Part shown: positions 1 to 31,692 of the stretch, piece after piece
How positions within the stretch are numbered: the stretch's first letter is position 1
How the letters are laid out: the number at the start of each line of letters is the position of its first letter
Assembly: GCA_902769055.1 (NCBI GenBank)
Contig: CACXNL010000007.1
Span: forward strand, 1-38,450
Source: an uncultured Pseudomonadota bacterium
GTDB lineage: Bacteria > Pseudomonadota > Alphaproteobacteria > RUG11792
Reading direction: 5' to 3'
Length of the DNA stretch: 38,450 bases
Program-made: the position numbers and the translations under genes
The notes under the pieces: generated by a model
Database searches by the model: none
Seen by the model: the letters and a program-made list of their open reading frames with translations, nothing else
What the model was told of the DNA's origin: nothing

Positions 1-3000
1 GGTGCTGGATATAAATACAAATTGCCGTGGTATATGATAATCGGCACTGAAAACTCAGGTAAGTCGTCGCTTATGAGCGGGTTTACGCACGATGAAATAT
101 ATGATGATGAAAGTGAAGAGGCGCCCTGTACGTGGTGGTTTTTGAAAAGCGGCGTCGTCCTTGATGTAAGAGGCTCGATGTTCCTGCCGAAATCTGGATT
201 TAATGCGGATGAAAATAGTTGGAACATTATTTTAAATATGCTTTCCAGATACCGTTCAGCACGTCCGCTTAATGGAATAATACTGACTATTCCGGCGGAT
301 GAGCTTTATGGAAAGTCAAAATTAGCAATAGAGGAAGTAAAGAAGCGTGCGCAATATGTTGCGAGAAAATTGAACTTTGCTCAGAACTATTTGGGTCTGC
401 GGTTGCCGATTTATATCGTCGTGGCGAAGACTGACGTCGTGCCGGGATTTCAGAGTTTTTGCTCAGAAATACCTGTCCGGAACCGTGGCAATATGCTCGG
501 TTGGTCTTCGCCTTATTCGGTCGACATCCCGTATTCTCCGCGAATGCTGGATGAGGGATTTGCGACATTCGAGAATGAACTGAATGAGCTTAGGATGGAG
601 ATTTTTTCCGGCAATTCCATGTCGATGACGCGGGATGGTATTTTCGTTTTTCCGAGCGAGTTGCTGACGATAAAGGAGGCATTGAGTCTGTATATCGACA
701 CGATATTTAAGTCATCGTCCGTAGATGAAAAATTCTATTTCAGGGGATTTTACTTCACTGGTGATAGCAAGATGATGCCATTACTGTCGTTTGATGGCGA
801 TTTAGTTCAGAACGATGCGATGGCTATAGTGGGCACTCCGGACGCTGATATAAATGAAGTCGGGAGTGTTTCAGCTTCATATAACGAAGAAACGGTCAAG
901 AAGATTTTCTTTTTTGAGGATTTGTTACTGAAGAAAATATTTGCTGAAGAAGGTCTGGCATCACCGATGAGGACTAAGGTAAATCAGGCGAATAAATCGA
1001 TTTTAATAGCAAAAATTTCGACAGCGACATTTGTTGTTATTGGAAGCTACGGGCTGCTCAGCACTAGTGATAAGTTGAAGGAAAGTAAGCAGATTATATA
1101 TCCATCGTTGTATAAAATTTCTTCACTTATAAAAAATGCGAGCGATTTGACGTACAAAAATCTCGAGGTAAATGGAAATGAGATATTGGCGGATTGCTCA
1201 AGTCAATTGCTTGCGATGATGCAGCAGATAAATAGCGCGAAGTTTTCGTCGATATTTGTTCCGGCATCGTGGTTTAGCTCGATACATTCTGATTTGACAC
1301 ACACACTGAAATCTTCGTATCAGCGCGTAGTTGTTAGGACAATTTATATGAACCTTATGTTAAAGGCACGTGAACTTTTGACAATGCGCTCAGATGTTAA
1401 GTCAAAAAGCATAGCGGAAGTGCTAAATCCGCAGAATAGCGCTGAGTACATTCAGATGAAGCGCTATGTTTTTGGATTGATTGAGCTTGAGAAAAATATA
1501 AAGAAGTTTGATTCATTGAGGACTTCAGGGGATCCAAAGGATTTGAATGATTTAATAGATTACACGTTTAAAGGTTCGTTACCTCGTGAATTCCTGGACA
1601 ATTATCAGCAGTTCAGGCTGATTTTGATGAATACGCCATTTCCTGCAATAAACTTGTCTCCCTATAAGCAAACTGCATATAACGTCCTGATGAATTTATT
1701 TCATGGGTATTTGGATGCGATATTTACGACGCGTTCTGAAAACAGCATAATAGCATTTTTAAATAAATTCATACTTCAACTCTCGCGGCAAAATTTAAAG
1801 GAAAAGCCGAATTGCACGGATTTCATAAAGTTTTCGAAAGACTTGACTGCTGTTTGCGCTGAAATCGGAAAGGAGGGCGCGACTTGGTTAGATAAGGAAA
1901 TATTCGAGCCGGATAAAGAATTTGATGCGTTTTTGGATGGTGTAGAAACTTTATTCGGCAAAGAAGAAGCGCAAAAGATTTTGGATATAGTCGCCGTAAA
2001 TTTCGGACACCTGAAAGCGAAACTGAGCGAATTTAATAATGCGCTGAAGAGCGATATACCTGGCAAGAAGTTGCAGAATAAAGCGGAAAATGAGTTTCCG
2101 TCGAGCGGTATATTTTTGATGGAACGTTGTTTATCTTCGCTGTGCGCCGAGCCGTTTATGGAAATTCCGGGCGATTACCAGCTTATAACTGATATACCTG
2201 CTGGGAAAATGATTTTCTGGGACGATGAACTTGTTAAATACGCATATGAAATTGGGAAGAGCTTCGAGCAATTTGTGGCGACGAAAATAAAAGATTTTCC
2301 GCGCAAAATGCAGGAGGGTGTGCTTTTACTGGCACGTTCGAATTTATGTGCCGTCATAGCAAGTACCGTTGCGAAATCACAAAGTTTAGTGGACGAACCG
2401 AGCGGTATAACTTCTGAAATAACATCTGAGGAAATTTTGCAAAAGCAAGTAACGGAATTGAAAGGTGTTGCGCCCAAACTCGTGAGTTTATTAAAAATTC
2501 TCCGTAGCGATAAATTCAGTTTTGTCTTTGGGAATTTGCGTGCAATTTTAAACAAAATTGGATTTTCGCTTTTGGGACATATTGACAAATTGTTCGAGCA
2601 GCAAAAGCCGTATTATCCAAATAATACGAACTTCAATTTTTGGAATGGCGAGCCTGGCGCGGGGCTACAAGCATATTCGTCAACCGATACCGAGGAGTTG
2701 GATTTGTACTTGCAACTTCAGCGAAGCATTGTGACTAGATTGGCGCTGGATTTTGCAGATACCATAGTTGCCTTTCTGAATTCGGAAGCTGTATATGACC
2801 CAAATTATGGTGAGCATACGCAACTAACGAAATGGACGAGGATTGTTGACAACGTAAAGAAAGTGGCAAAGAAAGACCCAACGAGTACTGTTGCTATAAC
2901 CGAGAATTTCATAAGGACGACGCTGAATAGCTATGATTTGGATACAATATCGAAGAAAATATCTCTCAAGGATATTCGTGGGAATTCTGGCGATTATTTT

Positions 3001-4146
3001 CAAAATATAATACGAAATATCAAAAAAGGACTAATGTCACGAGCCGAAGTACTTTTGAGACAACGCAATATAGCGAGGTACGACGCGCTTCGCGATTATT
3101 ACACAAAGCATTTGGAGAACAAGTATCCATTTGAGAATTACGGGAAATCGCAGCGTACGGCGACGGATGCTGACCTCGATGCGGTACGTGAATTTTTCAC
3201 GATGTACGACGAATTTGGAGGTTCCCCTGAAGCGATTTTAGACCAGATATACCAGCTTGGCGAGGACGCGAAGGAGGTTTATACGTTTATGAAAAAGCTC
3301 CACAGTATACGGGCGTTTTTCGGCGATTCCTTAGCCGATCCGAATGGGGCAATAAAGGTTAGGCTGGAGGCGAGTTTTGACATAAACAAGCGTGAAGAGA
3401 AAAATACAGATTACCTTGTTGACCGTGTGTTTGCTCCAAATAACGATACGAATATTGAACCTATAAGTTCGGATAAATCGGGGATTTGGTATTTCGGCGA
3501 CCCGATAGAGCTCAGGCTGAGGTGGGCTGAAGGCGATGACCAGGCGGACAAGCCGGTGTATGACCAAAATGATCCCGACTTGATACTGGAGGGAAATACT
3601 GTGCAAATCCAGTGTGTCGGGAATTGGGCTGCGATACGGTTTTTGCAGAAGTACAAGGCTGCGAATACTAATAGCGATACCTTGGCGCCAAATCAGAGCG
3701 TGCTGAACTTTAGGGTGCCTTTGAATTCAGGGAAAATAGCGAAGATATACATGGGTATAACGCCGTCTTTGCCGAAGAAGCCCGGCGAACCATCTGTGAC
3801 TAGCGTGAGTATTCCGCAAATACCAGGCAAAATGCCGAAAATGCCTAGTTCCGTAAAAGCATTAGAAAGTATTTCAGTTCTAATAAACAGAGCTCCTGTA
3901 ACTGAAACTAATACGAAAAAGGAACAATCTGTTAGAACAAAAATAGAAGATACATCAGAAACCATTGAGACAGAGCCAGAACATGGAGTGCCAGATCAAG
4001 TCGAAATGAAGGATGTTGTTAAAGACGAAAAAAAGATAAAGCAAGAAAACGATCGCAAAGAAGCAATGCGAATATTGAGGGCAAAGAATAATCAGGAGAA
4101 AGATGAGGAACCGCTAGTTGAGATAAACGAAGAGGAAATAGGCTAG
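1..4146 (+). CDS. tssM: Type VI secretion membrane protein TssM (IcmF family), 5' end outside window
   Basis: This is the large inner-membrane subunit of the type VI secretion membrane complex; in the family it spans inner membrane and periplasm and works with TssL and TssJ. The frame is open from base 1, so the start lies upstream; the TTG at 22 is an internal Leu codon. The fragment opens with LPWYMIIGTENSGKSS, the TssM-type approach to a Walker A (G15 to S22 in window numbering). A hydrophobic segment at about residues 333-352 (ILIAKISTATFVVIGSYGLL) should be the membrane helix that follows the NTPase domain. The long middle fits the periplasmic IcmF region, and the motif GNWAAIRFLQ near base 3620 matches the usual C-terminal domain. 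An extra Pro-rich then Glu/Lys-rich tail of about 125 residues follows (bases ~3765-4146). No other T6SS gene is visible here. Family call is strong; the exact T6SS subtype is unknown. Confidence 0.9.
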   Translation, partial: GAGYKYKLPWYMIIGTENSGKSSLMSGFTHDEIYDDESEEAPCTWWFLKSGVVLDVRGSMFLPKSGFNADENSWNIILNMLSRYRSARPLNGIILTIPADELYGKSKLAIEEVKKRAQYVARKLNFAQNYLGLRLPIYIVVAKTDVVPGFQSFCSEIPVRNRGNMLGWSSPYSVDIPYSPRMLDEGFATFENELNELRMEIFSGNSMSMTRDGIFVFPSELLTIKEALSLYIDTIFKSSSVDEKFYFRGFYFTGDSKMMPLLSFDGDLVQNDAMAIVGTPDADINEVGSVSASYNEETVKKIFFFEDLLLKKIFAEEGLASPMRTKVNQANKSILIAKISTATFVVIGSYGLLSTSDKLKESKQIIYPSLYKISSLIKNASDLTYKNLEVNGNEILADCSSQLLAMMQQINSAKFSSIFVPASWFSSIHSDLTHTLKSSYQRVVVRTIYMNLMLKARELLTMRSDVKSKSIAEVLNPQNSAEYIQMKRYVFGLIELEKNIKKFDSLRTSGDPKDLNDLIDYTFKGSLPREFLDNYQQFRLILMNTPFPAINLSPYKQTAYNVLMNLFHGYLDAIFTTRSENSIIAFLNKFILQLSRQNLKEKPNCTDFIKFSKDLTAVCAEIGKEGATWLDKEIFEPDKEFDAFLDGVETLFGKEEAQKILDIVAVNFGHLKAKLSEFNNALKSDIPGKKLQNKAENEFPSSGIFLMERCLSSLCAEPFMEIPGDYQLITDIPAGKMIFWDDELVKYAYEIGKSFEQFVATKIKDFPRKMQEGVLLLARSNLCAVIASTVAKSQSLVDEPSGITSEITSEEILQKQVTELKGVAPKLVSLLKILRSDKFSFVFGNLRAILNKIGFSLLGHIDKLFEQQKPYYPNNTNFNFWNGEPGAGLQAYSSTDTEELDLYLQLQRSIVTRLALDFADTIVAFLNSEAVYDPNYGEHTQLTKWTRIVDNVKKVAKKDPTSTVAITENFIRTTLNSYDLDTISKKISLKDIRGNSGDYFQNIIRNIKKGLMSRAEVLLRQRNIARYDALRDYYTKHLENKYPFENYGKSQRTATDADLDAVREFFTMYDEFGGSPEAILDQIYQLGEDAKEVYTFMKKLHSIRAFFGDSLADPNGAIKVRLEASFDINKREEKNTDYLVDRVFAPNNDTNIEPISSDKSGIWYFGDPIELRLRWAEGDDQADKPVYDQNDPDLILEGNTVQIQCVGNWAAIRFLQKYKAANTNSDTLAPNQSVLNFRVPLNSGKIAKIYMGITPSLPKKPGEPSVTSVSIPQIPGKMPKMPSSVKALESISVLINRAPVTETNTKKEQSVRTKIEDTSETIETEPEHGVPDQVEMKDVVKDEKKIKQENDRKEAMRILRAKNNQEKDEEPLVEINEEEIG

Positions 4147-18000: not shown

Positions 18001-19938
18001 TTACCCTGCGCTGCCTATTATCTTTACACAGCTCTTCGGCAGGTCGCGTAAAAATCTGGATGGTGAGGCGTACGTGGGGGTAGGGGAGGCATATGAGCCT
18101 CGTCTGTTGCAAAACGTTATGTATGCTTCCTTTTTCGCGCGCGTTATCGCAACGTAGCAAAGTCGTCGCTCCTCTTCTATGCCTATATCGCCTTTTTCGT
18201 AAATCGATTTTTGATGCGGCAGTATACCCTCCTCAAATCCCGGTATAAACACGCTATGGAACTCGAGCCCTTTTGCCGCGTGTATCGTCGATATAGTAAG
18301 CATGTCGTAATTATTCGTATTCGTTTTGTCCATCACCAAACTGACGTAATCCAAAAATTCATTTACGTCCTCAAATTCCTCCAAAGACTTAACCAATTCG
18401 TCCAAAGTCTCCAGCCTCGCCTCATCTTCAAGAATTTTAGAGCTCTGCAACATCGCTATATACCCAGATTCTTTCAGGATTTTCTGCATCAATTCAGATG
18501 GAGACAACGTTTCGATTTCCTGTCGCCAGCCATTTATTTGCTCAAAAAACTTCAGAAGTTTCGTATTTGACGCAGATTTCGAGCTTTCGGCGACCAACAA
18601 AGCGGCTTTAGGTAGCGAAATCGATTTTTCTTTAGACAAAGCGTAAAATTTATTTATCGAAGTCGTGCCAATTCCACGTTTCGGCAGATTTACGATCCGC
18701 TCGAAAGCCACGCCGTCATCCGGATTTACCACCAATCGCAAGTACGCAATTGCATCTTTTACTTCCTTCCGCTCATAGAATTTCAATCCTCCAACCACGA
18801 TATACGGTATTCCCTCCGCCAAGAACCGCTCTTCAAAGACGCGTGTCTGGAATGTCGCCCGAACTAAAATAGCAATATCGTGATATGCAAGTCCATGCTT
18901 ATGTTTATTTTCAACAAGAGCTGCAATAAATCTCGCCTCCTCCGCCGGGTGCATCAGTGCTTTTACTATAATCGGTAATCCAGCTTCCTCCTCAGTCCAA
19001 AATTTCTTTGTCATTCTCATCGAGTTTTTCGCGATCAGCCCACTCGCTGCCTGTATGATATTTTTTGTAGAACGGTAATTCTGTCCAAGTCGAATAATCG
19101 TTGGGTTCTTAAAATCTTGGTCGAATTTCAGTATATTTCCGACATCTGCACCACGCCAGCTGTATATCGATTGGTCATCGTCACCAACGCAACAAATATT
19201 GCCATGTCCCATCGCTAATAATCTGAGCCATATATACTGCGCAGTATTAGTATCTTGATATTCATCAACCATAATATACTTAAACTTTTCCTGATATATT
19301 TGCAAAATCTCTTGATTTTTCTTGAAAAGTTCGATGGAAATCTTCAGAATATCCCCGAAATCAACCGCATCCAGGGACGCCAGCATATCCTGATATGGCT
19401 GATACAAATTTGCAGCAATAGCCTCTGCCGTAAATCGCGGCGCCCCCCTCTTCGCATCATCCGGATTACAGCACTTATCCTTCCAACGATTTATATAATA
19501 CGCAACTTGTTTTGGCGTATTCTTTTTGTCATCCACCTTATACTCAGCCGTAATTTTCTTGAGCAAGCGCAATTGATCGGCTGCGTCTATTATGGTAAAA
19601 TTCGCACTTCTATTGAACAAATCGTGATAAGGACGAATAATGCGAAGTGCTAAAGAGTGGAACGTACCAATCCACAATTTTTCACTAGAGTATTCAAATG
19701 TACTCGATCGATTTAAAAGATTTACAGAGCGTTCTTTCATTTCATTTGCAGCTTTATTAGTGAATGTGACCGCCAAAATTTCGTTTATACGGCACAGATG
19801 TTGCGAGACAATATACGCAAGACGCGACGTTAAAACCCTGGTTTTCCCAGTTCCAGCACCAGCTAATACCAACACTGCTCCTTCAGTTGTCTGAACTGCC
19901 TCTCGTTGTTCTTTATTTAGTGACGACAAATCGAACAT
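18001..19938 (-). CDS. uvrD: UvrD/PcrA/Rep-type 3'-5' DNA helicase
   Basis: A 645-aa superfamily 1A helicase for repair and replication restart. Motifs in order: Q-motif region LNKEQREAVQ, Walker A LAGAGTGKTRVL, Walker B VDEYQDTN, motif III CVGDDDQSIYSWRGA, motif IV LGQNYRST, motif V TIHAAKGLEF, and motif VI EEERRLCYVAITRAKK. It lacks the ~75-residue C-terminal tail of E. coli UvrD or PcrA (about 720 aa) that contacts RNA polymerase, so its role may be closer to Rep, or the tail was lost by reduction. ATG 19938. It is the first gene of the long minus-strand run and is divergent from the ATPase gene at 20072. Confidence 0.94.
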   Translation of the reverse strand: MFDLSSLNKEQREAVQTTEGAVLVLAGAGTGKTRVLTSRLAYIVSQHLCRINEILAVTFTNKAANEMKERSVNLLNRSSTFEYSSEKLWIGTFHSLALRIIRPYHDLFNRSANFTIIDAADQLRLLKKITAEYKVDDKKNTPKQVAYYINRWKDKCCNPDDAKRGAPRFTAEAIAANLYQPYQDMLASLDAVDFGDILKISIELFKKNQEILQIYQEKFKYIMVDEYQDTNTAQYIWLRLLAMGHGNICCVGDDDQSIYSWRGADVGNILKFDQDFKNPTIIRLGQNYRSTKNIIQAASGLIAKNSMRMTKKFWTEEEAGLPIIVKALMHPAEEARFIAALVENKHKHGLAYHDIAILVRATFQTRVFEERFLAEGIPYIVVGGLKFYERKEVKDAIAYLRLVVNPDDGVAFERIVNLPKRGIGTTSINKFYALSKEKSISLPKAALLVAESSKSASNTKLLKFFEQINGWRQEIETLSPSELMQKILKESGYIAMLQSSKILEDEARLETLDELVKSLEEFEDVNEFLDYVSLVMDKTNTNNYDMLTISTIHAAKGLEFHSVFIPGFEEGILPHQKSIYEKGDIGIEEERRLCYVAITRAKKEAYITFCNRRGSYASPTPTYASPSRFLRDLPKSCVKIIGSAG

Positions 19939-20034
19939 GAAATGCTTCGCAAAATTCCAAATACCCTCCTAATCCTAGCATTTATACCGACATAATCAAA
20001 CTTCAATACTGAAGATAACTTTAGATAAATTTGA

Positions 20035-20040
20035 TATAAT
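20035..20040 (+). promoter_or_regulatory. -10 element before the ATPase-HEPN gene
   Basis: A perfect TATAAT in an AT-rich stretch 31 nt before ATG 20072. No convincing -35 is found at 16-18 nt spacing. The predicted leader is about 25 nt and has no Shine-Dalgarno match; it contains a five-codon reading frame (ATG at 20062) that overlaps the true start. Confidence 0.4.
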
Positions 20041-20071
20041 CTTAAAAGATTTTTACGATTTATGAAAAAAA

Positions 20072-21991
20072 ATGGATAAGTTCTTTATAAGAAAACTGAA
20101 ATTTCGTAGCAGCAAAATGATACATCCTTGCAAAACAGATATTTTGAATGGTTTAGAATTAGACTTTTACAATAAAATAATGGAAAAACCGTATAGTACA
20201 ATCATCCTTGCGGGAGAAAATGGGTGCGGAAAGACGACGATCCTTTATGAAATTTATCAGGTGAGAGATGATGTTTCCCCTTACCTCAAGGCATCTCCCG
20301 TAGATGCTGAGAATTTGCGTGATTTGAACGATAACTGGAGTTTTGAATATTTGTACCTTGAATCTCAAGAATCAACAAAGGATAACAAGGAAATAAAATG
20401 CTATGTATACGAATGCAAGTGTCGCGATAATCAAGATCATCCGCATTATCATTATAAGATACGACAATATTTCAAAGAGGAATTTGATAAAAAATGCACT
20501 AATGAAATGGAAGAACAAAAAGATGAGAATTGTAATTTTCCTCAAGTAAAGATAAAAGGTTACGGCGGTTACTCACCATTTATTTCGAACGATAATGATC
20601 ACAATGAGACATCTGTTTTGAAGATGTTACAAGATTTGTACATTAAGGATAGTCAGGATGACAAAATCGAAAACGGTCGTATATCTCGACTTAAAAAAGC
20701 ATTTGATCGCTTCTTTGCAGAAGAAAATTTGGAACTGTGCAAACACCCAGAAATTACAATTCACCCCATAAACGCCAACTTCTTAGAAGCGCAGAGGCGA
20801 CCATACGCTATTCCCGCTAAGGATGATAAAGTGAGCGTTCTTATTAAGCCGGAATCAGAAAAATGGAAAATAAAATTTTTCGGCAAAATTACTATCCAAA
20901 GAAATCAAGATATAAACGGGATAAAGGAGATTGATTCAGGTAAAGCCGTAAATCACGCGCTTAGAAGATTTTATGATATAGCCCAGTTTTCTCATCAATA
21001 TCCGCAGCAAGACACTAATTTTTCGTTTACTTTTAATAAAAAGGGGGAAAAATTTAATATACATCTTTTAAGCAGTGGAGAACAGAGGATTGTCTTGATG
21101 GCGAGTAATTTCCTCTTTCCTAGGAAAGAGGCTAGTCCACAGCACAATGGGGGAATACCTGAGAGCATTTCACCTCATATTGTCCTCGTTGATGAACCAG
21201 AACTAAGTATGCACCCGAAATGGCAGAAGCGAATACTCAAGTACTACCAGGATTTACTATCTGTTGACAAAGTTGATGAAAATGGTAATCCGATAAAGAA
21301 TGAAAAAGGCGAGATAGCAAAGGAACAAACAGCGCAACTAATCGTCGCCACGCACTCACAGCATATCATCGAATCAGCAATGACTGGTGCAAACAAAGAC
21401 GATACGCTGATTATTATTCTGAAAGAGGCTCTGAAGGAAAAAGACGGGAAAATTGAACCAACATACGTATACAGCACAGACAATGGTTTTTGCGTAAAGA
21501 AAGATAGAGCGGAGGAAAACGATGCACCTGAAAATGACGACTTCATTTTCAATGATAGCCCGACACCGGCGGAAGTAAATTACATCGTATTCGGTATTTC
21601 ATCTCCTGACTATCATCAGCACTTGTATGCTTATTTACAAGTTAAGAAACATAAAAACATTTTAGATATCGATACCTACATTCATGAGCAAATAGAAGCG
21701 AAAATTTACGAAAACATTAAGAAAATTAAGGCACTGGGAGTCAACAAAGATAATTTCGAAAAAGGGATGAAGGACTGGAGTAAAAAAGAAAGCTGGTTAA
21801 AAGAGGATACATATAACGGCACGACCTGGAAAACTTTACCCACTTACATACGAAATACGATAGATCATCTTTACAAAGACAATGAAAATGATAAAAGACA
21901 CTATACACCTGATGAATTAGAAATGTCCATTGAACTACTGCGAGTAATTATAAATAAACTTAAAACTGAAGGAGGCATCCAGAGCTTATAG
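20072..21991 (+). CDS. ABC/SMC-type ATPase with C-terminal HEPN-like motif, possible defence gene
   Basis: A 639-aa soluble protein. Residues 48-55 are a Walker A (GENGCGKT). An ABC-type signature SSGEQRIVL starts at 334, Walker B is LVDEPELSMHP (Asp374-Glu375), and the switch His is in VATHSQ (His428). This is the RecF/SMC-like class (AAA_15/AAA_21). No membrane segment is seen and the insert between motifs is highly charged. The C-terminal ~150 residues are helical and contain YIRNTIDH: Arg594-Asn-Thr-Ile-Asp-His599 fits the R-polar-x3-H signature of HEPN RNases, within a LPTYIRN...YTPDELEMSI context. ATPase plus HEPN is the layout of the anticodon nucleases PrrC and RloC, so an RNA-cutting phage-defence role is plausible but inferred. 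It is a stand-alone gene between uvrD (divergent) and a tRNA-Thr, with no partner gene visible. Confidence 0.85.
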   Translation: MDKFFIRKLKFRSSKMIHPCKTDILNGLELDFYNKIMEKPYSTIILAGENGCGKTTILYEIYQVRDDVSPYLKASPVDAENLRDLNDNWSFEYLYLESQESTKDNKEIKCYVYECKCRDNQDHPHYHYKIRQYFKEEFDKKCTNEMEEQKDENCNFPQVKIKGYGGYSPFISNDNDHNETSVLKMLQDLYIKDSQDDKIENGRISRLKKAFDRFFAEENLELCKHPEITIHPINANFLEAQRRPYAIPAKDDKVSVLIKPESEKWKIKFFGKITIQRNQDINGIKEIDSGKAVNHALRRFYDIAQFSHQYPQQDTNFSFTFNKKGEKFNIHLLSSGEQRIVLMASNFLFPRKEASPQHNGGIPESISPHIVLVDEPELSMHPKWQKRILKYYQDLLSVDKVDENGNPIKNEKGEIAKEQTAQLIVATHSQHIIESAMTGANKDDTLIIILKEALKEKDGKIEPTYVYSTDNGFCVKKDRAEENDAPENDDFIFNDSPTPAEVNYIVFGISSPDYHQHLYAYLQVKKHKNILDIDTYIHEQIEAKIYENIKKIKALGVNKDNFEKGMKDWSKKESWLKEDTYNGTTWKTLPTYIRNTIDHLYKDNENDKRHYTPDELEMSIELLRVIINKLKTEGGIQSL

Positions 21992-22037
21992 ACATCCCCT
22001 GGACGGTTCTCAGCAAGTGTGGTACCCTCAAGTGTGC

Positions 22038-22091
<54 letters not shown>

Positions 22092-22113
<22 letters not shown>

Positions 22114-22409: not shown

Positions 22410-24771
22410 CTGATAAAACCTCCTTCACTTTTACTGCTAAATCCCGCAGAGAAAATGGCTTCTTCAGAAAATGTATATCCGAATTTTTGCTAACGTCCTG
22501 CTTGAAAGTATCCGCAGTGTAGCCCGATATGAAAAGAGTTTTTATGCCTGGCAATTTGTCTTTTATCATTTTGCTCAAGGTGGGACCATCCATTTTGGGC
22601 ATAATAACATCAGTTATCAACAAATCGATTTTCTCGTCATTCAGTATTTCCAGCGCTTCATCGCCACAAGCCGCTTCAATGACCTTGTACCCTTTCTCTC
22701 GCAAAGCTCGTGCTGAAAATACCCTTACCGGCTCTTCGTCCTCCACCAAAAGTATCGTTCCTGAGCCCCCCAAACCCGTCATGTCTGTTTTCTCTTCCAT
22801 TTCTGCCGGTTTTTCTGAACCGGTATATTTCGTTATGTATATTTTGAATGTCGTTCCACTTCCAAGCTCTGATTCAACGTCTATAAATCCACCAGCTTGA
22901 TTTATTATGCCGTAAACGGTTGATAACCCAAGTCCTGTTCCAGTTCCGGCTCTGTGCCGAATATTTTCATCTTTTCTTGAAAAGAACGGATCAAATATGT
23001 TCGGTATATCCTCTTGTGCTATTCCTTTTCCAGTATCGCTAATCTCAATCAGGACGTAGTCTCCAGGCTTAGCCGTGCCGTTCGCGCACATTAACGCTTC
23101 TTCTACATAAACATTATTTGTTTTTATTTTGATTTTTCCTTCGCCTTCAATCGCGTCTCTGGCGTTTATAACCAGGTTCATTATGACTTGTTCCAGCTGG
23201 TTTTCATCAATCTCTATACACCAGACATTTCGTCCATGTACTATCTGCAAGTCAATATCAACTCCGACTAAACGCCTTAATAGCGATGAAAGTTCAATCA
23301 AAATCTCGGTCACCGAAACAACTGTTGGCTTTATCGTTTTTTGTCTCGAAAATGCCAGCAGTTGCTTGACCAAATTTGCAGCTCTACTGGCGTTTTGCCT
23401 AATCTGCATGATATCGCCATACGACGGGTCGTCTTGCGTATAGCGCTGCAACAAAAGGTCACAAAATCCAATCATCGCAGTTAAAAGATTATTGAAATCG
23501 TGCGCAATTCCTCCCACCAATAGACCGACCGTTTGCATTTTCTGTGACTGAAGGAACTGCTTCTCCAGCCCCTTTTGCGTAGTGACATCCACTATCTGTA
23601 TGAGCAAACGGTTCTTTTCTATTCTGCTGATACAAACTTTTGCTATTGCAGCTCCGCCATCGAATTTGAGCTCTAGCTGCTGTGTATTACTGCTATGTTG
23701 TAATGCTTGTTTTATATGCGATGCAAAATCGCAATCTTCACCCTTTATGAATTCGCAAATATCAGCCCCAACCTGTACTACCTTACTTCCTTCCACGATG
23801 ACTTTATCCTGCGCCATTGACGCAAAAGCGGGGTTTAATGAAATTATTTCTCCAGTTTCTGTTGTTATAACGGATGGTATTGGAGAAGATGTAAAAATAT
23901 CAGTCGTAATCCCTGCATCGTGCGATCTGATAATATCAGCACTATTTGCCTTATAAATTACCCACGGGGTTGTCGAAAATGTGCTTCCCATAGATGATTT
24001 TGCAAGAATTGCCGAAAAACTTCTGGCGAGCCTGGGCTTTATTACAACGCTAACTTGCTTTTGCTGTACATTATCGCTATTAAAATCTTCTATGAATTCA
24101 CCAATGTTTACGCCAACCAACTCGTTTTTATGCGCATTAAGTAAATTGGCAAAAGTAGTGTTAGCTCCGAGAATTTCTCCGGAATTGTTTATATAAAATA
24201 TCCCAAATGGAAAATGGTCGATAAAATTTTCGAGTTTCTCGTAATTCGCAGAGTTTTTTTCCGCTTCTGCAAATTGCTTTGAAATATCACTAATCGTTAC
24301 GACAGAAATACTTTCTCCAATCAATGAATTCTGTTTATCCAGTGTATTTATTGTCGCAAGCCACTTCTTAAATTGATTGTGCAGTCCTGAGCCAGAGCCG
24401 GAAATTGTAGTGTGGCAAGGCGTTCCTGTTTCGAAAAACTTGCAAAAATTTTGATAATTCGGAGACGCCGTAACTCGCGTAGAAAGATTTTGCAGAAACT
24501 CCTCTTTGTCCCCGTATAGTTGCGGATGAGTAGTATATATGACATCATCACTTTCATCAAACGCAATGACTTCGTGGTTTCTGGAAAGGGCTTTAGAAAC
24601 GTCCCTTACGATGTTGAGGAAGTATTCAGCGGAGCGTAAATTTCGTCTCGCCCTGATATACATCCCAAAAACGGATATTAAAATCGCAACTGATACAATA
24701 CACCAAAATATAGCATTTGGCAGCAGCACCTTAACGAACAACTTCCACAAAGTTTCCAGAATTTCCAGCAA
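22402..24771 (-). CDS. cckA: Hybrid histidine kinase CckA
   Basis: A 789-aa kinase/phosphatase at the top of the CckA-ChpT-CtrA phosphorelay that controls the alphaproteobacterial cell cycle and surface genes. One membrane helix is near the N-terminus (LLPNAIFWCIVSVAILISVF). Two PAS-like regions follow (about 180-245 and 300-400). His424 lies in GGIAHDFNNLLTAMIGF, the CckA-type H box; the ATPase domain has MNLVINARDAIEG, SDTGKGI and GTGLGLSTVYGI. A C-terminal receiver carries Asp721 (LLITDVIMPKMDG). I chose TTG 24771 because GGAGG lies 6 nt upstream and it begins just before the membrane helix; the frame upstream of it is antisense to the nupC copy. ctrA and chpT are not in the window. Confidence 0.92.
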   Translation of the reverse strand: MLEILETLWKLFVKVLLPNAIFWCIVSVAILISVFGMYIRARRNLRSAEYFLNIVRDVSKALSRNHEVIAFDESDDVIYTTHPQLYGDKEEFLQNLSTRVTASPNYQNFCKFFETGTPCHTTISGSGSGLHNQFKKWLATINTLDKQNSLIGESISVVTISDISKQFAEAEKNSANYEKLENFIDHFPFGIFYINNSGEILGANTTFANLLNAHKNELVGVNIGEFIEDFNSDNVQQKQVSVVIKPRLARSFSAILAKSSMGSTFSTTPWVIYKANSADIIRSHDAGITTDIFTSSPIPSVITTETGEIISLNPAFASMAQDKVIVEGSKVVQVGADICEFIKGEDCDFASHIKQALQHSSNTQQLELKFDGGAAIAKVCISRIEKNRLLIQIVDVTTQKGLEKQFLQSQKMQTVGLLVGGIAHDFNNLLTAMIGFCDLLLQRYTQDDPSYGDIMQIRQNASRAANLVKQLLAFSRQKTIKPTVVSVTEILIELSSLLRRLVGVDIDLQIVHGRNVWCIEIDENQLEQVIMNLVINARDAIEGEGKIKIKTNNVYVEEALMCANGTAKPGDYVLIEISDTGKGIAQEDIPNIFDPFFSRKDENIRHRAGTGTGLGLSTVYGIINQAGGFIDVESELGSGTTFKIYITKYTGSEKPAEMEEKTDMTGLGGSGTILLVEDEEPVRVFSARALREKGYKVIEAACGDEALEILNDEKIDLLITDVIMPKMDGPTLSKMIKDKLPGIKTLFISGYTADTFKQDVSKNSDIHFLKKPFSLRDLAVKVKEVLSGA

Positions 24772-24788
24772 AGCACGCCTCCGACCAA

Positions 24789-24830
24789 ACCACAAGTGGT
24801 ATTTCCATGTTATCAGAAATTCACAAGTGA
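24789..24830. promoter_or_regulatory. Paired palindromes in the cckA/nupC divergent region
   Basis: ACCAC-AA-GTGGT (24789-24800) and TCAC-AA-GTGA (24821-24830) share the core CACAAGTG (24791-24798 and 24822-24829), exactly 31 bp apart, about three helix turns. They lie in the 100-bp gap between the divergent cckA and nupC starts. This is the usual layout of two operators bound on one DNA face. The regulator is unknown. Confidence 0.45.
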
Positions 24831-25377
24831 TTGACGCACATGATGTTATACTGAACATTGAGGATTGCGTATTGGTGGACGTGAATGTGGTAAGAGCTGT
24901 CGTTGGATACTTTGTGTTTCTCGTTGCATCCATGTTTTTAGCTGAAGAATCAAATATGAAGTTAAATCGCAACTGGAAACCGATTGTATTGGATATTTTG
25001 TTGCAGATTTTCCTGGCATTTGCACTCACTAACTTGCCTGTGTGTATTTCGGCTATTGAATGGATGGCGAGAGGAGTTACGAAGATTAGCGAGGCAACTG
25101 CGGAGGGAACTAAATTCTGTTTTGGATATATTGGCGGCGGGGATTTGCCATTTACTGTTAAAGAAAACGGAAAAACTTTTGTCTTTGCTTTTCAGGCACT
25201 TCCGAGCATTATATTAGTCAGTGTTTTGTCCGCTGTGTTGATGTATTTCAAAATTCTCCCCATTTTATCGAAAATCGTCGGGTATGTTCTTAAATTTGTA
25301 TTTAATATCAAATTACATATCGGAATGTTTGCAATAGCAAGAATTTTCATAGGTCCACAAGAAAACCTTTTTTTTAA

Positions 25378-25385
25378 TCAAAAAC
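25378..25385 (+). repeat. T8 tract at the nupC copy 1 frame break
   Basis: Eight T in a row; seven would restore the reading frame through the conserved EAPLLIK-like motif. Confidence 0.8.
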
Positions 25386-25772
25386 AAACTAAATGCCCTA
25401 ACAAAATCCGAAACATTTATTATATTATCGCTAGCATTTGTGACATCCTCAGCAGGAAATATGCCTGTTATTGCAAATATTTTATCTGAAGTGTGTCCAG
25501 ATGCGTTGAAACATATTATAACAGCCTCAATTTTAAATATAATATCTGTCTTGATACTTGCTCGAGTTGCCATGCCAACACAAGATAGCGTAGTTGATGA
25601 AAAATTCGATATTTCTGAAGAACTCAATCATCCAAATTTAATGAGCGCGATATCACAAGGATTATCTGATGGCTTGAATACTTGGTGGCGTGTTGTTGGT
25701 TCGCTCATTGGCGTAATTGCACTCATCTATATTATAAACTATACTTTAGTTTTATTACTAAATTACTTGTTC

Positions 25773-25782
25773 GGGGGGGGGG
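25773..25782 (+). repeat. G10 tract in nupC copy 1
   Basis: Ten consecutive G coding for a Gly triplet in an otherwise AT-rich gene. Copy 2 has no such run at the matching place (FPNVAGAPITLQ). Length changes here would switch the frame of the last third of the protein. Confidence 0.8.
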
Positions 25783-26214
25783 CTATTACGTTGCAAAAAC
25801 TGTTTGGATTTATTATGCACCCAGTTGCTTGGCTAATAGGGATAGATACGCAAGATTTATATCAAGTCGCGCAAATAATTGGAACTAAAATAGCGGTCAA
25901 TGAAACAGTAGCATTTTCCGACTTAGCCAAGACTTCAATTTCTCAAATTGATATGACAAAAACAATTTATGCAATATGTAATTTCGGAAACTTTTCTACG
26001 CTAGGAGCAACGATTAGTTCAATGATGACACCTGCCCCAAAAAATAGTTGGACTTCTGGAATAATTGGAAAAGCATTCATTTGCGAACTTTTGGCAACAG
26101 GACTTTCGACTGCGATGATAAGCATAATTCTTGAAGTGACGGAATAATATGTTTGAAGGCACAACATAAAGTGTTGTACCATTCCTCAGAGCCTTAATCG
26201 TTTTGGATAGCTTG

Positions 26215-27465
26215 ATGTTAAGACCAATAATCGGATACTCCTTGTTTCTCACAGCTTCAGCTTTTCTTTGTGGGAATTTTCGTGATATTTTGCAAAAACG
26301 AAATTGGAGACCGATTGTATTTGGCATCCTGTTCCAGGTTCTCGTAGTTTTCGCATTCACGAACTTGCCAGCTTGTGTTTCGGCTATCGAGTGGGTCGCT
26401 AATGGAGTTATGAAGCTCAAGGACGCGACTATCGAAGGCACGAAGTTCTGCTTTGGCTATATCGGTGGCGGAGATTTGCCATTTAATCTGAAGGAAAACG
26501 GCAGCGCTTTCGTGTTTGCGTTCCAAGTCTTACCCACCATTATTTTGGTAAGCGCGTTATCTGCTATGCTTACATATCTAAAAATTTTACCAATTTTAGC
26601 GAAAATTATCGGATACGTATTCAGAGTAGTGTTCAATGTCAAATCATATATTGGGATGGTTGCTGCAGCGAAAATTTTTATAGGACAACTGGAGGCGCCG
26701 CTCCTGATAAAGAGCAAGCTGAATACGCTTCCTAAATCGGAGATGTTCGTTGTCCTGGCGTTAGCATTTGCGACGGCATCTGCCTCAGTTATGCCGATAT
26801 ATGCGACAGTACTGGCGCCGGTTTGTCCAGATGCTATGAAGCATATAATCATTTCATCGGTCTTAGGTGTTATTTCGGTTTTAATAGTTGCTGCAATAGC
26901 TATGCCTTCTGAGAGCAATATTGCTGAAGACATCAGTGATACATTCGAGGCAAGCGAACACAAAGGCTTTATGGGAGCTTTGTCGAAAGGTTTGTCTGAT
27001 GGTTTGTTTGTTTGGTGGTGTATAGTCGGTTCGCTCATTGGAACAATCGCGTTGATTGCGCTGTTTAATTATGTTTTAGAATCGTTTCCAAACGTTGCCG
27101 GAGCGCCGATAACATTGCAGCGAATATTTGGCGTATTTATGTATCCATTTGCTTGGCTTATGGGCATACAACCGCAAGACTTGTCGGCGATTTCGCAAAT
27201 ACTGGGTACCAAAATGGCAATAAACGAGACCGTGGCGTTTTTTGACTTGGCGAAAGCGGCAGTATCGCAGGAAAGCGTAGTCAAGACCATATATGCGATA
27301 AATAATTTCGGCAATTTCTCGGCTATTGGAATAACTATAGGCGGTATGAGTGCCCTGGCGCCTGGTAACAAGAGCATCGCTGAATTGGTCGGGAAAGCGT
27401 TTATAGGTGGCTTTTTGGCTACCGGGCTATCGGCAACGCTGGCAAGCATTTTCTTTGCAATATGA
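26215..27465 (+). CDS. nupC: NupC-type nucleoside transporter, copy 2 (intact)
   Basis: A 416-aa inner-membrane nucleoside symporter of the CNT family with about ten hydrophobic helices. Family motifs are complete: GTKFCFGYIGGGDLPF, IGQLEAPLLIKSKLNTLPKSEMF, GTKMAINETVAFFDL and INNFGNFSAIGITIGGMSALAP. It should import ribo- or deoxyribonucleosides, which host-associated bacteria take from the host. ATG 26215 is the likely start; TTG 26203 in frame is possible, and both have weak ribosome sites. It ends 10 nt before the acyl-CoA synthetase gene, so the two should share a message. Confidence 0.9.
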   Translation: MLRPIIGYSLFLTASAFLCGNFRDILQKRNWRPIVFGILFQVLVVFAFTNLPACVSAIEWVANGVMKLKDATIEGTKFCFGYIGGGDLPFNLKENGSAFVFAFQVLPTIILVSALSAMLTYLKILPILAKIIGYVFRVVFNVKSYIGMVAAAKIFIGQLEAPLLIKSKLNTLPKSEMFVVLALAFATASASVMPIYATVLAPVCPDAMKHIIISSVLGVISVLIVAAIAMPSESNIAEDISDTFEASEHKGFMGALSKGLSDGLFVWWCIVGSLIGTIALIALFNYVLESFPNVAGAPITLQRIFGVFMYPFAWLMGIQPQDLSAISQILGTKMAINETVAFFDLAKAAVSQESVVKTIYAINNFGNFSAIGITIGGMSALAPGNKSIAELVGKAFIGGFLATGLSATLASIFFAI

Positions 27466-30010: not shown

Positions 30011-30661
30011 AGACATACCCCTAAATTTCACCGCGTACATGGTATCACCTTCTATAAACCATCTACAACTCTCCAATCTCTAAATCTAATTTTGAAATTC
30101 ACTGAAAAACACCTTCATTACTCAAATTTAAGTGTTACGCCGTTAGAGAGTGACAAACGTTTTAGAGCTCTTAAATATCCACCATGTTCTACGGTAACGT
30201 TGTTAGATAATGTATGGTTTTCCGTGCCTGAAAAAATCAATGTTCCGTTCGCCTTGATATATATGTTAGTTTGCGGGAGCGAAGCTGTATTGTTTAAAGT
30301 AATATTCGTATTTTTAGTTCCATCACCAACTATAAACAATTTTTCGTTAAATTCTGAATTGTCGCCGGATAATGTAATCGTTCCTGTTAATTGCAAATTC
30401 GCTGGATAATACCCAATGCCAGAAACCGTTTTATTTATTAGAGCTCCCGAGATAATTCTATTAATTCCATCAGCGACTACCGTTTGATTGGGAGTGTTCA
30501 TCCCAATGTATGCCGCATCGTTAGAAGTAGCATTGAATAATTCACTGAAATCGAAGCTAATTTCTTCCGAGAATTCAGCCCCTGAAAGCTGAGCGGACCC
30601 CACATTTCTCAAACTTGTTGAAAGACCTGGCGTCCCATACACAGTGTAAACTTTGTCGGCG

Positions 30662-30669
30662 CCCCCCCC
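30662..30669 (-). repeat. C8/G8 tract at the surface-protein frame break
   Basis: Eight C on the plus strand (G8 in the coding sense). A tract of 7 or 10 would fuse the leucine-rich part to the beta-helix part in one 500-residue protein. Confidence 0.85.
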
Positions 30670-30749
30670 GCGCGCTTATAATGGGCTTTGAATCATCGTC
30701 TGTTTCCTCGAAGCTAAAGAGGTAATTTCCGATAATCCTCATATTATAT

Positions 30750-31210
30750 TTTGCATTACTAAACATATTTGTATAGCTACTTGGGACTACAAACGTTCTC
30801 GATACTCTCAATTCTGCTAAAGCTGAACAATCTGCAAACATTCTTGCTGTACTAGATAAAGCACTTGTGTCAAAGTTACATAAATTCAATGTTTGTAATC
30901 CGTAACAATATCTGAACATTCCCTCCATATTTGTAACTCTACTTGTGTTAAAACCACTCAAATCTAGTGTCGTTAAACTGGCACATCTGGAAAACATACC
31001 ATTCATAGTTGTTACATTAGCAGTATCAAGTCCGCTAAGACCCAAAGAGGTCAGACTTACACAACCGCGAAACATAAGTTTCATACTCGAAACATTACTT
31101 GTGTCAATATCATCTAGATTTACAGAAGTTAGTCTAAAGCAGTTATAAAACATATTTTCCATGCTGGTTGCGCTGGATGTATTTGCGCCGCGTAAATCAA
31201 TTCGCGTCCT
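30750..31210 (-). repeat. Tandem leucine-rich repeats (24 residues, about 72 bp)
   Basis: Repeat pattern L-x-L-x-x-x-D-T-S-x-V-x-x-M-x-x-M-F-x-x-C-x-x-L, seen five times clearly and a sixth time in degraded form. The nucleotide copies have diverged, so the array is old rather than recently expanded. Boundaries are approximate. Confidence 0.75.
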
Positions 31211-31692
31211 CGATATTTTGTTTGACGTATCGTAGTCAATTTCATCTCCGCACTCCGCGAACATATCCGAGAGATCGTTTGGAAACGTCACGTACTTAGT
31301 TTCTCCGGTGCTTTCGTCTATTGACGGTTGGAACTCCAACTCAACGTTCAATGCGGAATATGAGGAAGAGCTATAAGTATCCCAATAAAACGCTTTCTTT
31401 ACCACGCTCACTTGGTTGCCATTCACAAGCGCTGGTATGACAAACTTTACAGTACCTCCAGTATTTCCTGACTTAGGTAGGCACGTGGATATATTGTATT
31501 GTGAGGAACCAGCGGTAAACTTAAGGTAGTTATTACTGGAATTATTGTTTGTATTCGTGCATCCATTAAATACAATCGTCGTAGCGCTACACGATGCTAT
31601 AGATGACATAAACGCCAAACTTTTCATCAAAGTATTCATAATTTTCGCTCAACCAAAATTTCCAACTCACAATATTATTATTCCGGAAAATC

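Follow-up and report, generated by a model that had tools for sequence, protein, structure and literature searches.

The window analysed here is the whole stretch of 38,450 nucleotides, a single contig from an assembly of 0.81 Mb that is 76% complete. On its plus strand, which carries all of the gene's features listed here, an intact open reading frame at 20072-21991 starts with ATG and encodes 639 amino acids without an internal stop; the product is predicted to be an OLD-type ABC ATPase with a C-terminal HEPN-like domain. The ATPase proved complete, as originally predicted: Walker A (GENGCGKT, residues 48-55, 20213-20236), the ABC signature (LSSGEQ, residues 333-338, 21068-21085), Walker B (VLVDEPE, residues 371-377, 21182-21202) and the switch region (ATHSQHI, residues 426-432, 21347-21367) were all found, the last with a His428 that is invariant in alignment A6. 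It is followed by a C-terminal helical domain (residues 497-639, 21560-21988; modelled as residues 492-639), a predicted HEPN RNase that is conserved independently across relatives. This tail contains the acidic residue E501 (21572-21574) and the Rx4H motif RNTIDH (21851-21868), running from R594 and N595 to H599. The full-length relatives compared have 482-516 aa, and the window protein exceeds them by more than 120 residues. Most of this surplus falls between Walker A and the signature, a region in which the model is not reliable; it could be a lineage-specific sensor part. The GC content (0.363), GC3 (0.362) and codon fit (-1.008) of the gene are all within the range of the other window genes and thus give no backing to a recent transfer marked by foreign composition.

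The TATAAT sequence that had been put forward as the gene's own promoter is present at 20035-20040, 5' of the gene, but promoter-like sites here (8 found) are no commoner than in shuffled sequences (8.4 +/- 2.6 expected), and an own promoter is therefore unproven. Read from their translations, the neighbours are a UvrD-like helicase (18001-19938, minus strand), which is the divergent upstream gene, and a YggU-type ORF; the adjoining tRNA gene was confirmed as tRNA-Thr(CGT) at 22038-22113 (plus strand), 46 bases 3' of the gene. No recognised defence gene was seen adjoining it, and the ORF list shows nothing noteworthy among protein ORFs next to it on the same strand. The claim that no restriction system lies nearby held among the 10 window proteins scanned with Pfam, none of which is a restriction-modification (R-M) gene, but does not extend to the relatives, which do occupy R-M loci.

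The uvrD neighbour is 82-84% identical in genomes G002, G003 and G004 and has different neighbours there, its start adjoining another membrane-protein ORF and a dUTPase-like ORF; in these genomes a GlmS-like ORF comes after the cckA and YggU-type ORFs (all by reading). Counterparts of the tRNA-Thr (93-99%) are located elsewhere in G003, G004, G006 and G007, and in G003 and G004 the counterpart adjoins a RecF-like ORF (by reading). By this sequence comparison the gene is at a synteny breakpoint (19939-22092), with both flanks and the tRNA-Thr having other neighbours in same-genus genomes. A tRNA-linked island was considered and rejected, given that the gene is on the 5' side of the tRNA-Thr and that the matching tRNAs are located elsewhere in the four genomes named.

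Three other features of the window deserve mention. A large protein encoded at 22-4146 (plus strand), at the contig edge of this very small genome, has an IcmF-related N-terminal domain (Pfam, E 5.9e-47), which we take to be a type VI secretion-type part. An ORF at 24539-25489 (plus strand) with the N-terminal part of a nucleoside transporter overlaps the ORF 25440-26147 and looks like a frame-broken copy; a complete nucleoside transporter follows at 26203-27465. The minus-strand ORF 30575-31639 encodes a DUF285/leucine-rich-repeat protein (Pfam) that is possibly surface or secreted.

Profile and structure comparisons assign the ABC head to a different class from that of PrrC and RloC. Pfam matches to AAA_21 (1.7e-17) and AAA_15 (8.9e-15) cover the ABC part only and leave the tail unmatched, the PADLOC profiles that match the head are AriA and PtuA, and the sole NCBIfam result, a PtuA match, stayed below threshold. 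AF2 modelled the full-length protein poorly (pLDDT 49); in structure comparison the ABC part of this model resembles the heads of GajA, OLD, PtuA and SMC-type proteins, with Z of 11.5-13.5. Among the Pfam matches at E<=1 there is no AAA_13, the model linked to the PrrC/RloC-type ABC domain, and no TOPRIM or DUF4435. On Pfam, PADLOC and structural resemblance, with the relatives likewise profile-scanned, the predicted head is of the OLD/PARIS/Gabija/Septu type and not of the PrrC/RloC type.

GajA structures rank high among the folds that match the ABC part, and this, together with a divergent UvrD-family neighbour (by reading), raises the thought of a Gabija-like pair, in which the protein would be a GajA relative partnered with the upstream helicase (18001-19938, minus strand). 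Such a pairing is very improbable given that the window protein has no TOPRIM match in Pfam, that the two genes are divergent, and that the helicase is conserved in G002-G004 beside other neighbours, with G002 and G003 yielding no tail relative.

An Rx4H occurrence is by itself little proof of a HEPN domain, and the weight comes from conservation. With the tail's own composition, R[NDH]xxxH is expected 0.02 times in its 143 residues, and a second Rx4H, RDNQDH, occurs at 118 within the ABC insert. The signature R594-N595-x3-H599 named in the original prediction withstood the comparison: all of the aligned relatives (19 of 19) have R594 and H599, among them the 15 that were collected without a motif pattern. 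Four rows (L064, L066, L069 and L071) had been collected with a DNA pattern demanding R[N/H]x I[D/H]H PEN and are no test of the motif. Left out of the 19 rows were L070 and L024 (near-copies of L023), L072 (the same protein as L066), L063, L065, L067 and L068 (from the same contigs as L027, L029, L028 and L025) and G825, which is divided over two frames and has RHQIHH in the second part. This conservation rules out a chance motif, despite the second occurrence at 118.

The residue after the arginine is N in 12 of the aligned tails and H in seven, so that the tails have the HEPN pattern Rx4-6H with a polar residue following the arginine; in HEPN RNases this residue is described as mostly N, D or H in the part of the survey that deals with the motif (Anantharaman 2013, PMC3710099). 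The residues after H599 in the window protein are unlike the HPEN of most relatives. Six tail columns are invariant across the 19 rows, namely E501, L518, R594, H599, S619 and I620. By a count from the alignment, E501 has K or R four positions on in nine of the 19 tails, resembling the Ex3[KR] given for HEPN in the portion of the 2013 paper that covers it (PMC3710099), and the window protein is not one of the nine. As a control, 46 ABC ORFs with a DEPE-type motif from loci L078-L128 were inspected: R[NH]xxxH within 40 residues of the end occurs in five, all members of the family, and in none of the other 41, one of which has RDxxxH 102 residues from its end while the rest have no such motif. 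Most of the non-family ORFs match the query in the ABC part only.

A repair ATPase resembling RecF, RecN or SMC, with a helical tail that is structural and has no nuclease role, would agree with the structure comparison of the ABC part, in which cohesin, Smc and RecN heads score close to the OLD and PtuA heads, and with the weak RecF and SMC matches among the relatives' profile hits. This explanation is quite unlikely, as precisely the R and H of the HEPN motif are among the least variable tail columns and the distribution of the family is patchy, mobile and defence-linked.

The tail is also homologous on its own: searched alone, that of the window protein matches those from Latilactobacillus (L. 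curvatus), Weissella and Klebsiella with E values of 3e-6, 5e-6 and 2e-4 (for a nominal database of 3 million letters). It is covered by none of the Pfam, NCBIfam or PADLOC models scanned, and for this reason such genes bear no annotation beyond AAA family ATPase or ATP-dependent nuclease. The proposed profile search against HEPN families went against the assignment, the Pfam HEPN models giving no meaningful score on 11 tail sequences (best pEK499_p136, E 0.11, in one of the 11).

The tail was modelled with AF2 (residues 492-639, alignment of 11 rows), giving a pLDDT of 70.7 and a pTM of 0.72. In this model of moderate confidence it is a helical bundle in which helix 98-108 (residues 589-599) ends at H599; a loop comes next, and then the long final helix (122-142). 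The motif would thus be located at a helix end before the last helix; for HEPN domains, the corresponding section of Anantharaman 2013 (PMC3710099) has the motif where helix 3 ends, ahead of the last helix. A second look with VIA at 171 chains put the HEPN toxin 7ae8 (entry title R102A) first, with Z 5.4 and 3.7 A over 103 residues, a score that does not reach the tool's safe level for helical bundles and exceeds that of an unrelated row by only 0.2; the archaeal HEPN 1wol scored Z 4.3. Foldseek matches of the tail model were not significant (the best, to an MntR regulator, had E 0.13), nothing significant came from BFVD, and a PDB sequence search with the tail profile gave no match. PrrC and RloC were not among the fold matches of the tail, an absence that excludes nothing. 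The modelled fold is compatible with the predicted four-helix HEPN fold but only weakly matched to it, the 7ae8 match being supportive and not decisive.

Relatives of the protein are widely scattered. One in the same genus (G004, on a contig of MAG RUG14192) has 72% identity in the ABC part and reads RNSISH at the motif; it and a Weissella plasmid protein both end in LPT-x-IRN-xxx-H. With the Weissella protein as query, relatives were found on L. helveticus pLH1, on a Klebsiella plasmid and as a split L. curvatus copy, all with RNxxxH, and further ones occur among E. coli prophage genes, viral contigs and additional genomes. The full-protein search matched four of 59 relatives, the genome itself included, and only its own match and that of G004 extend past the P-loop region. 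The tail profile hit two of 35 genomes of the family (own included), two of 398 in the phylum sample (own included, thus one of 397 others) and four of 369 in the class of G602 (G602 included). With the Klebsiella gene as query, 10 of 5426 E. coli genomes gave diverged relatives. Queried with the window protein, the viral contigs gave no match, the phages gave two records, both of a single Yersinia phage and matched in the ABC part only, and the class sample gave eight of 384 others, again in the ABC part only, none of whose ORFs shown ends with the motif. A search of the genome contigs with patterns chosen without the motif found only the same-genus relative already known, and the A7 profile scan gave no additional protein. 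The patchy distribution of these ABC-HEPN relatives fits mobile defence genes.

Several relatives are located inside defence loci. On the viral contig L064 (639-7963) the gene is part of a type I R-M operon in the order hsdM, ABC-HEPN, hsdS, hsdR (Pfam-confirmed), and the L069 relative adjoins ResIII and N6_N4_Mtase genes, a type III-like R-M arrangement. In G602 (L057, 3216-9154) SIR2_2-STALD, ThsB_TIR and TIR_2 genes stand beside the relative in a Thoeris-like locus, which also has a small ORF (3216-3692) with RNDVAH. An AbiE-like gene pair is near the relative in G1108 (L058; by reading). Others are associated with mobile elements: the E. coli prophages L023 and L024 combine an integrase (a frameshifted remnant in L024), the ABC-HEPN gene and a capsid gene; an integrase-like ORF adjoins the gene on the viral contigs L025, L028 and L070 (by reading); the Weissella plasmid relative adjoins an integrase; that on pLH1 is near recombinase and transposase genes; and that on the Klebsiella plasmid is between transposases with a TIR gene near.

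Given the relatives found inside R-M and Thoeris loci, the protein might be the ABC-HEPN part of a multi-gene system, an R-M or Thoeris accessory, of which the window copy is stranded and decaying or inactive. Some copies are indeed damaged, the L. curvatus plasmid relative (L018:3001-4469) being split into three ORFs and that of G825 (L060:565-2158) being divided over two frames inside its tail. This is unlikely for the gene studied here, which is intact with all motifs present; its same-genus relative retains RNSISH, and relatives are also found in prophages and on plasmids without R-M neighbours.

How the protein relates to known systems depends on which half is compared. In PrrC and RloC an ABC head keeps a HEPN anticodon nuclease in check, according to the part of the 2013 survey on these enzymes (PMC3710099), and the window protein is predicted to share this organisation of a single polypeptide in which an ABC head regulates a C-terminal HEPN RNase. 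Its relative in L064 lies, as PrrC does, inside a type I R-M operon, a location not seen for the window gene itself among the 10 Pfam-scanned proteins. Its head, in contrast, is OLD-type (AAA_15/AAA_21) and not AAA_13. The zinc hook CxxC is a feature of RloC, and it is absent from all 639 residues, as had been claimed. Compared by hhalign with one RloC-like APEC O1 protein, a single sequence, alignment A5 gave a probability of 0.9 on a percent scale. The PrrC/RloC-like layout hence stands as an analogy but not as membership, given the AAA_21/AAA_15 and OLD, AriA, GajA and PtuA matches, the missing AAA_13 and zinc hook, and a tail that did not align with the one RloC-like protein compared.

That RloC-like protein (738 aa, by reading; L074:30933-33149) is an AAA ATPase and cargo of a P2-type prophage of E. 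coli APEC O1, in which a Sll1717-family P-loop ATPase occurs further on; it was located via a guessed position and may be APECO1_4465.

In PARIS, an OLD-type ABC sensor releases a tRNA-cutting TOPRIM nuclease, as described in parts of two reports (PMC12839542, PMC12409363). The window protein is similar in pairing an OLD-type sensor, matched by AriA profiles, with a putative RNase effector, but its effector is HEPN-like and in the same chain, whereas that of PARIS is the TOPRIM protein AriB. The PtuA of Septu and retrons and the GajA of Gabija have the same class of ABC head; the window protein differs in having no TOPRIM match, no HNH partner seen in the ORF list, and a HEPN-like tail instead. 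A TOPRIM domain, fused or adjacent as in OLD, Gabija and PARIS, was thus not found, the neighbours having been assigned by reading. Krishnan is said to have published a study on ABC ATPases in 2020.

Calling the gene a possible undescribed one-gene defence or toxin was too strong, as C-terminal HEPN-ABC ATPase fusions beyond PrrC/RloC, the APECO1_4465 and ERFG_01251 groups, were reported in the section of Anantharaman 2013 on such fusions (PMC3710099). That section places the APECO1_4465 group in prophages, and for the ERFG_01251 group it gives CRISPR neighbourhoods, HEPN/Toprim-NTD1 fusions and a HEPN said to be nearer to that of MNT toxin-antitoxin pairs (PMC3710099). The ERFG_01251 group is like the window protein in having an N-terminal ABC and a C-terminal HEPN domain, and the best second-look match of the window tail is a HEPN toxin; the CRISPR neighbourhoods and HEPN/Toprim-NTD1 fusions were not seen here. 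Compared by description only, this group is the likeliest home of the window protein. ABC-HEPN is then already known as a kind, within which the present protein is distinguished by a predicted OLD-type head and a tail that is unmodelled in Pfam, NCBIfam and PADLOC.

Taken together, the window protein is probably a horizontally acquired, single-gene, ATPase-gated HEPN RNase that would serve abortive phage defence in a PARIS/PrrC-like manner, a reading drawn from its observed domains, the conserved motif, the order of helices in a moderate model, the context of its relatives and analogy. Because it appears to combine a PARIS-type head with a PrrC/RloC-type effector, we infer an ATP-gated release of the HEPN RNase on phage infection. 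The N-terminal head would dimerise on ATP and act as sensor and switch, keeping the C-terminal domain inactive until the head responds to a phage product, which might be an anti-restriction protein, or to an altered DNA or nucleotide state. Two HEPN domains might then pair, with R594, N595 and H599 making up an RNase active site that needs no metal, and, as in PrrC, RloC and PARIS, cut host RNA, most likely tRNA anticodon loops, so that translation would stop before the phage matures. The OLD-type ABC head may accordingly be suggested as a general phage sensor that has been combined with effectors of the TOPRIM and HNH kinds and of the HEPN kind as well.

A more specific and rather doubtful proposal is that these genes form a separate, unmodelled one-gene class of 'PARIS-like' guards, in which an OLD-type ABC sensor with a HEPN RNase in place of TOPRIM senses phage anti-restriction proteins and cuts host tRNAs, and which has been retained alone in a very small genome. 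Sensing of anti-restriction proteins would account for the placement of ABC-HEPN genes inside R-M operons and beside Thoeris. As relatives occupy E. coli prophages and R-M operons, the idea of a general phage sensor head is directly testable in laboratory strains.

An OLD-like AAA ATPase lacking the tail motif was observed on an Arcobacter plasmid (L020:2029-3540), where it is encoded two genes upstream of type I-B CRISPR genes.
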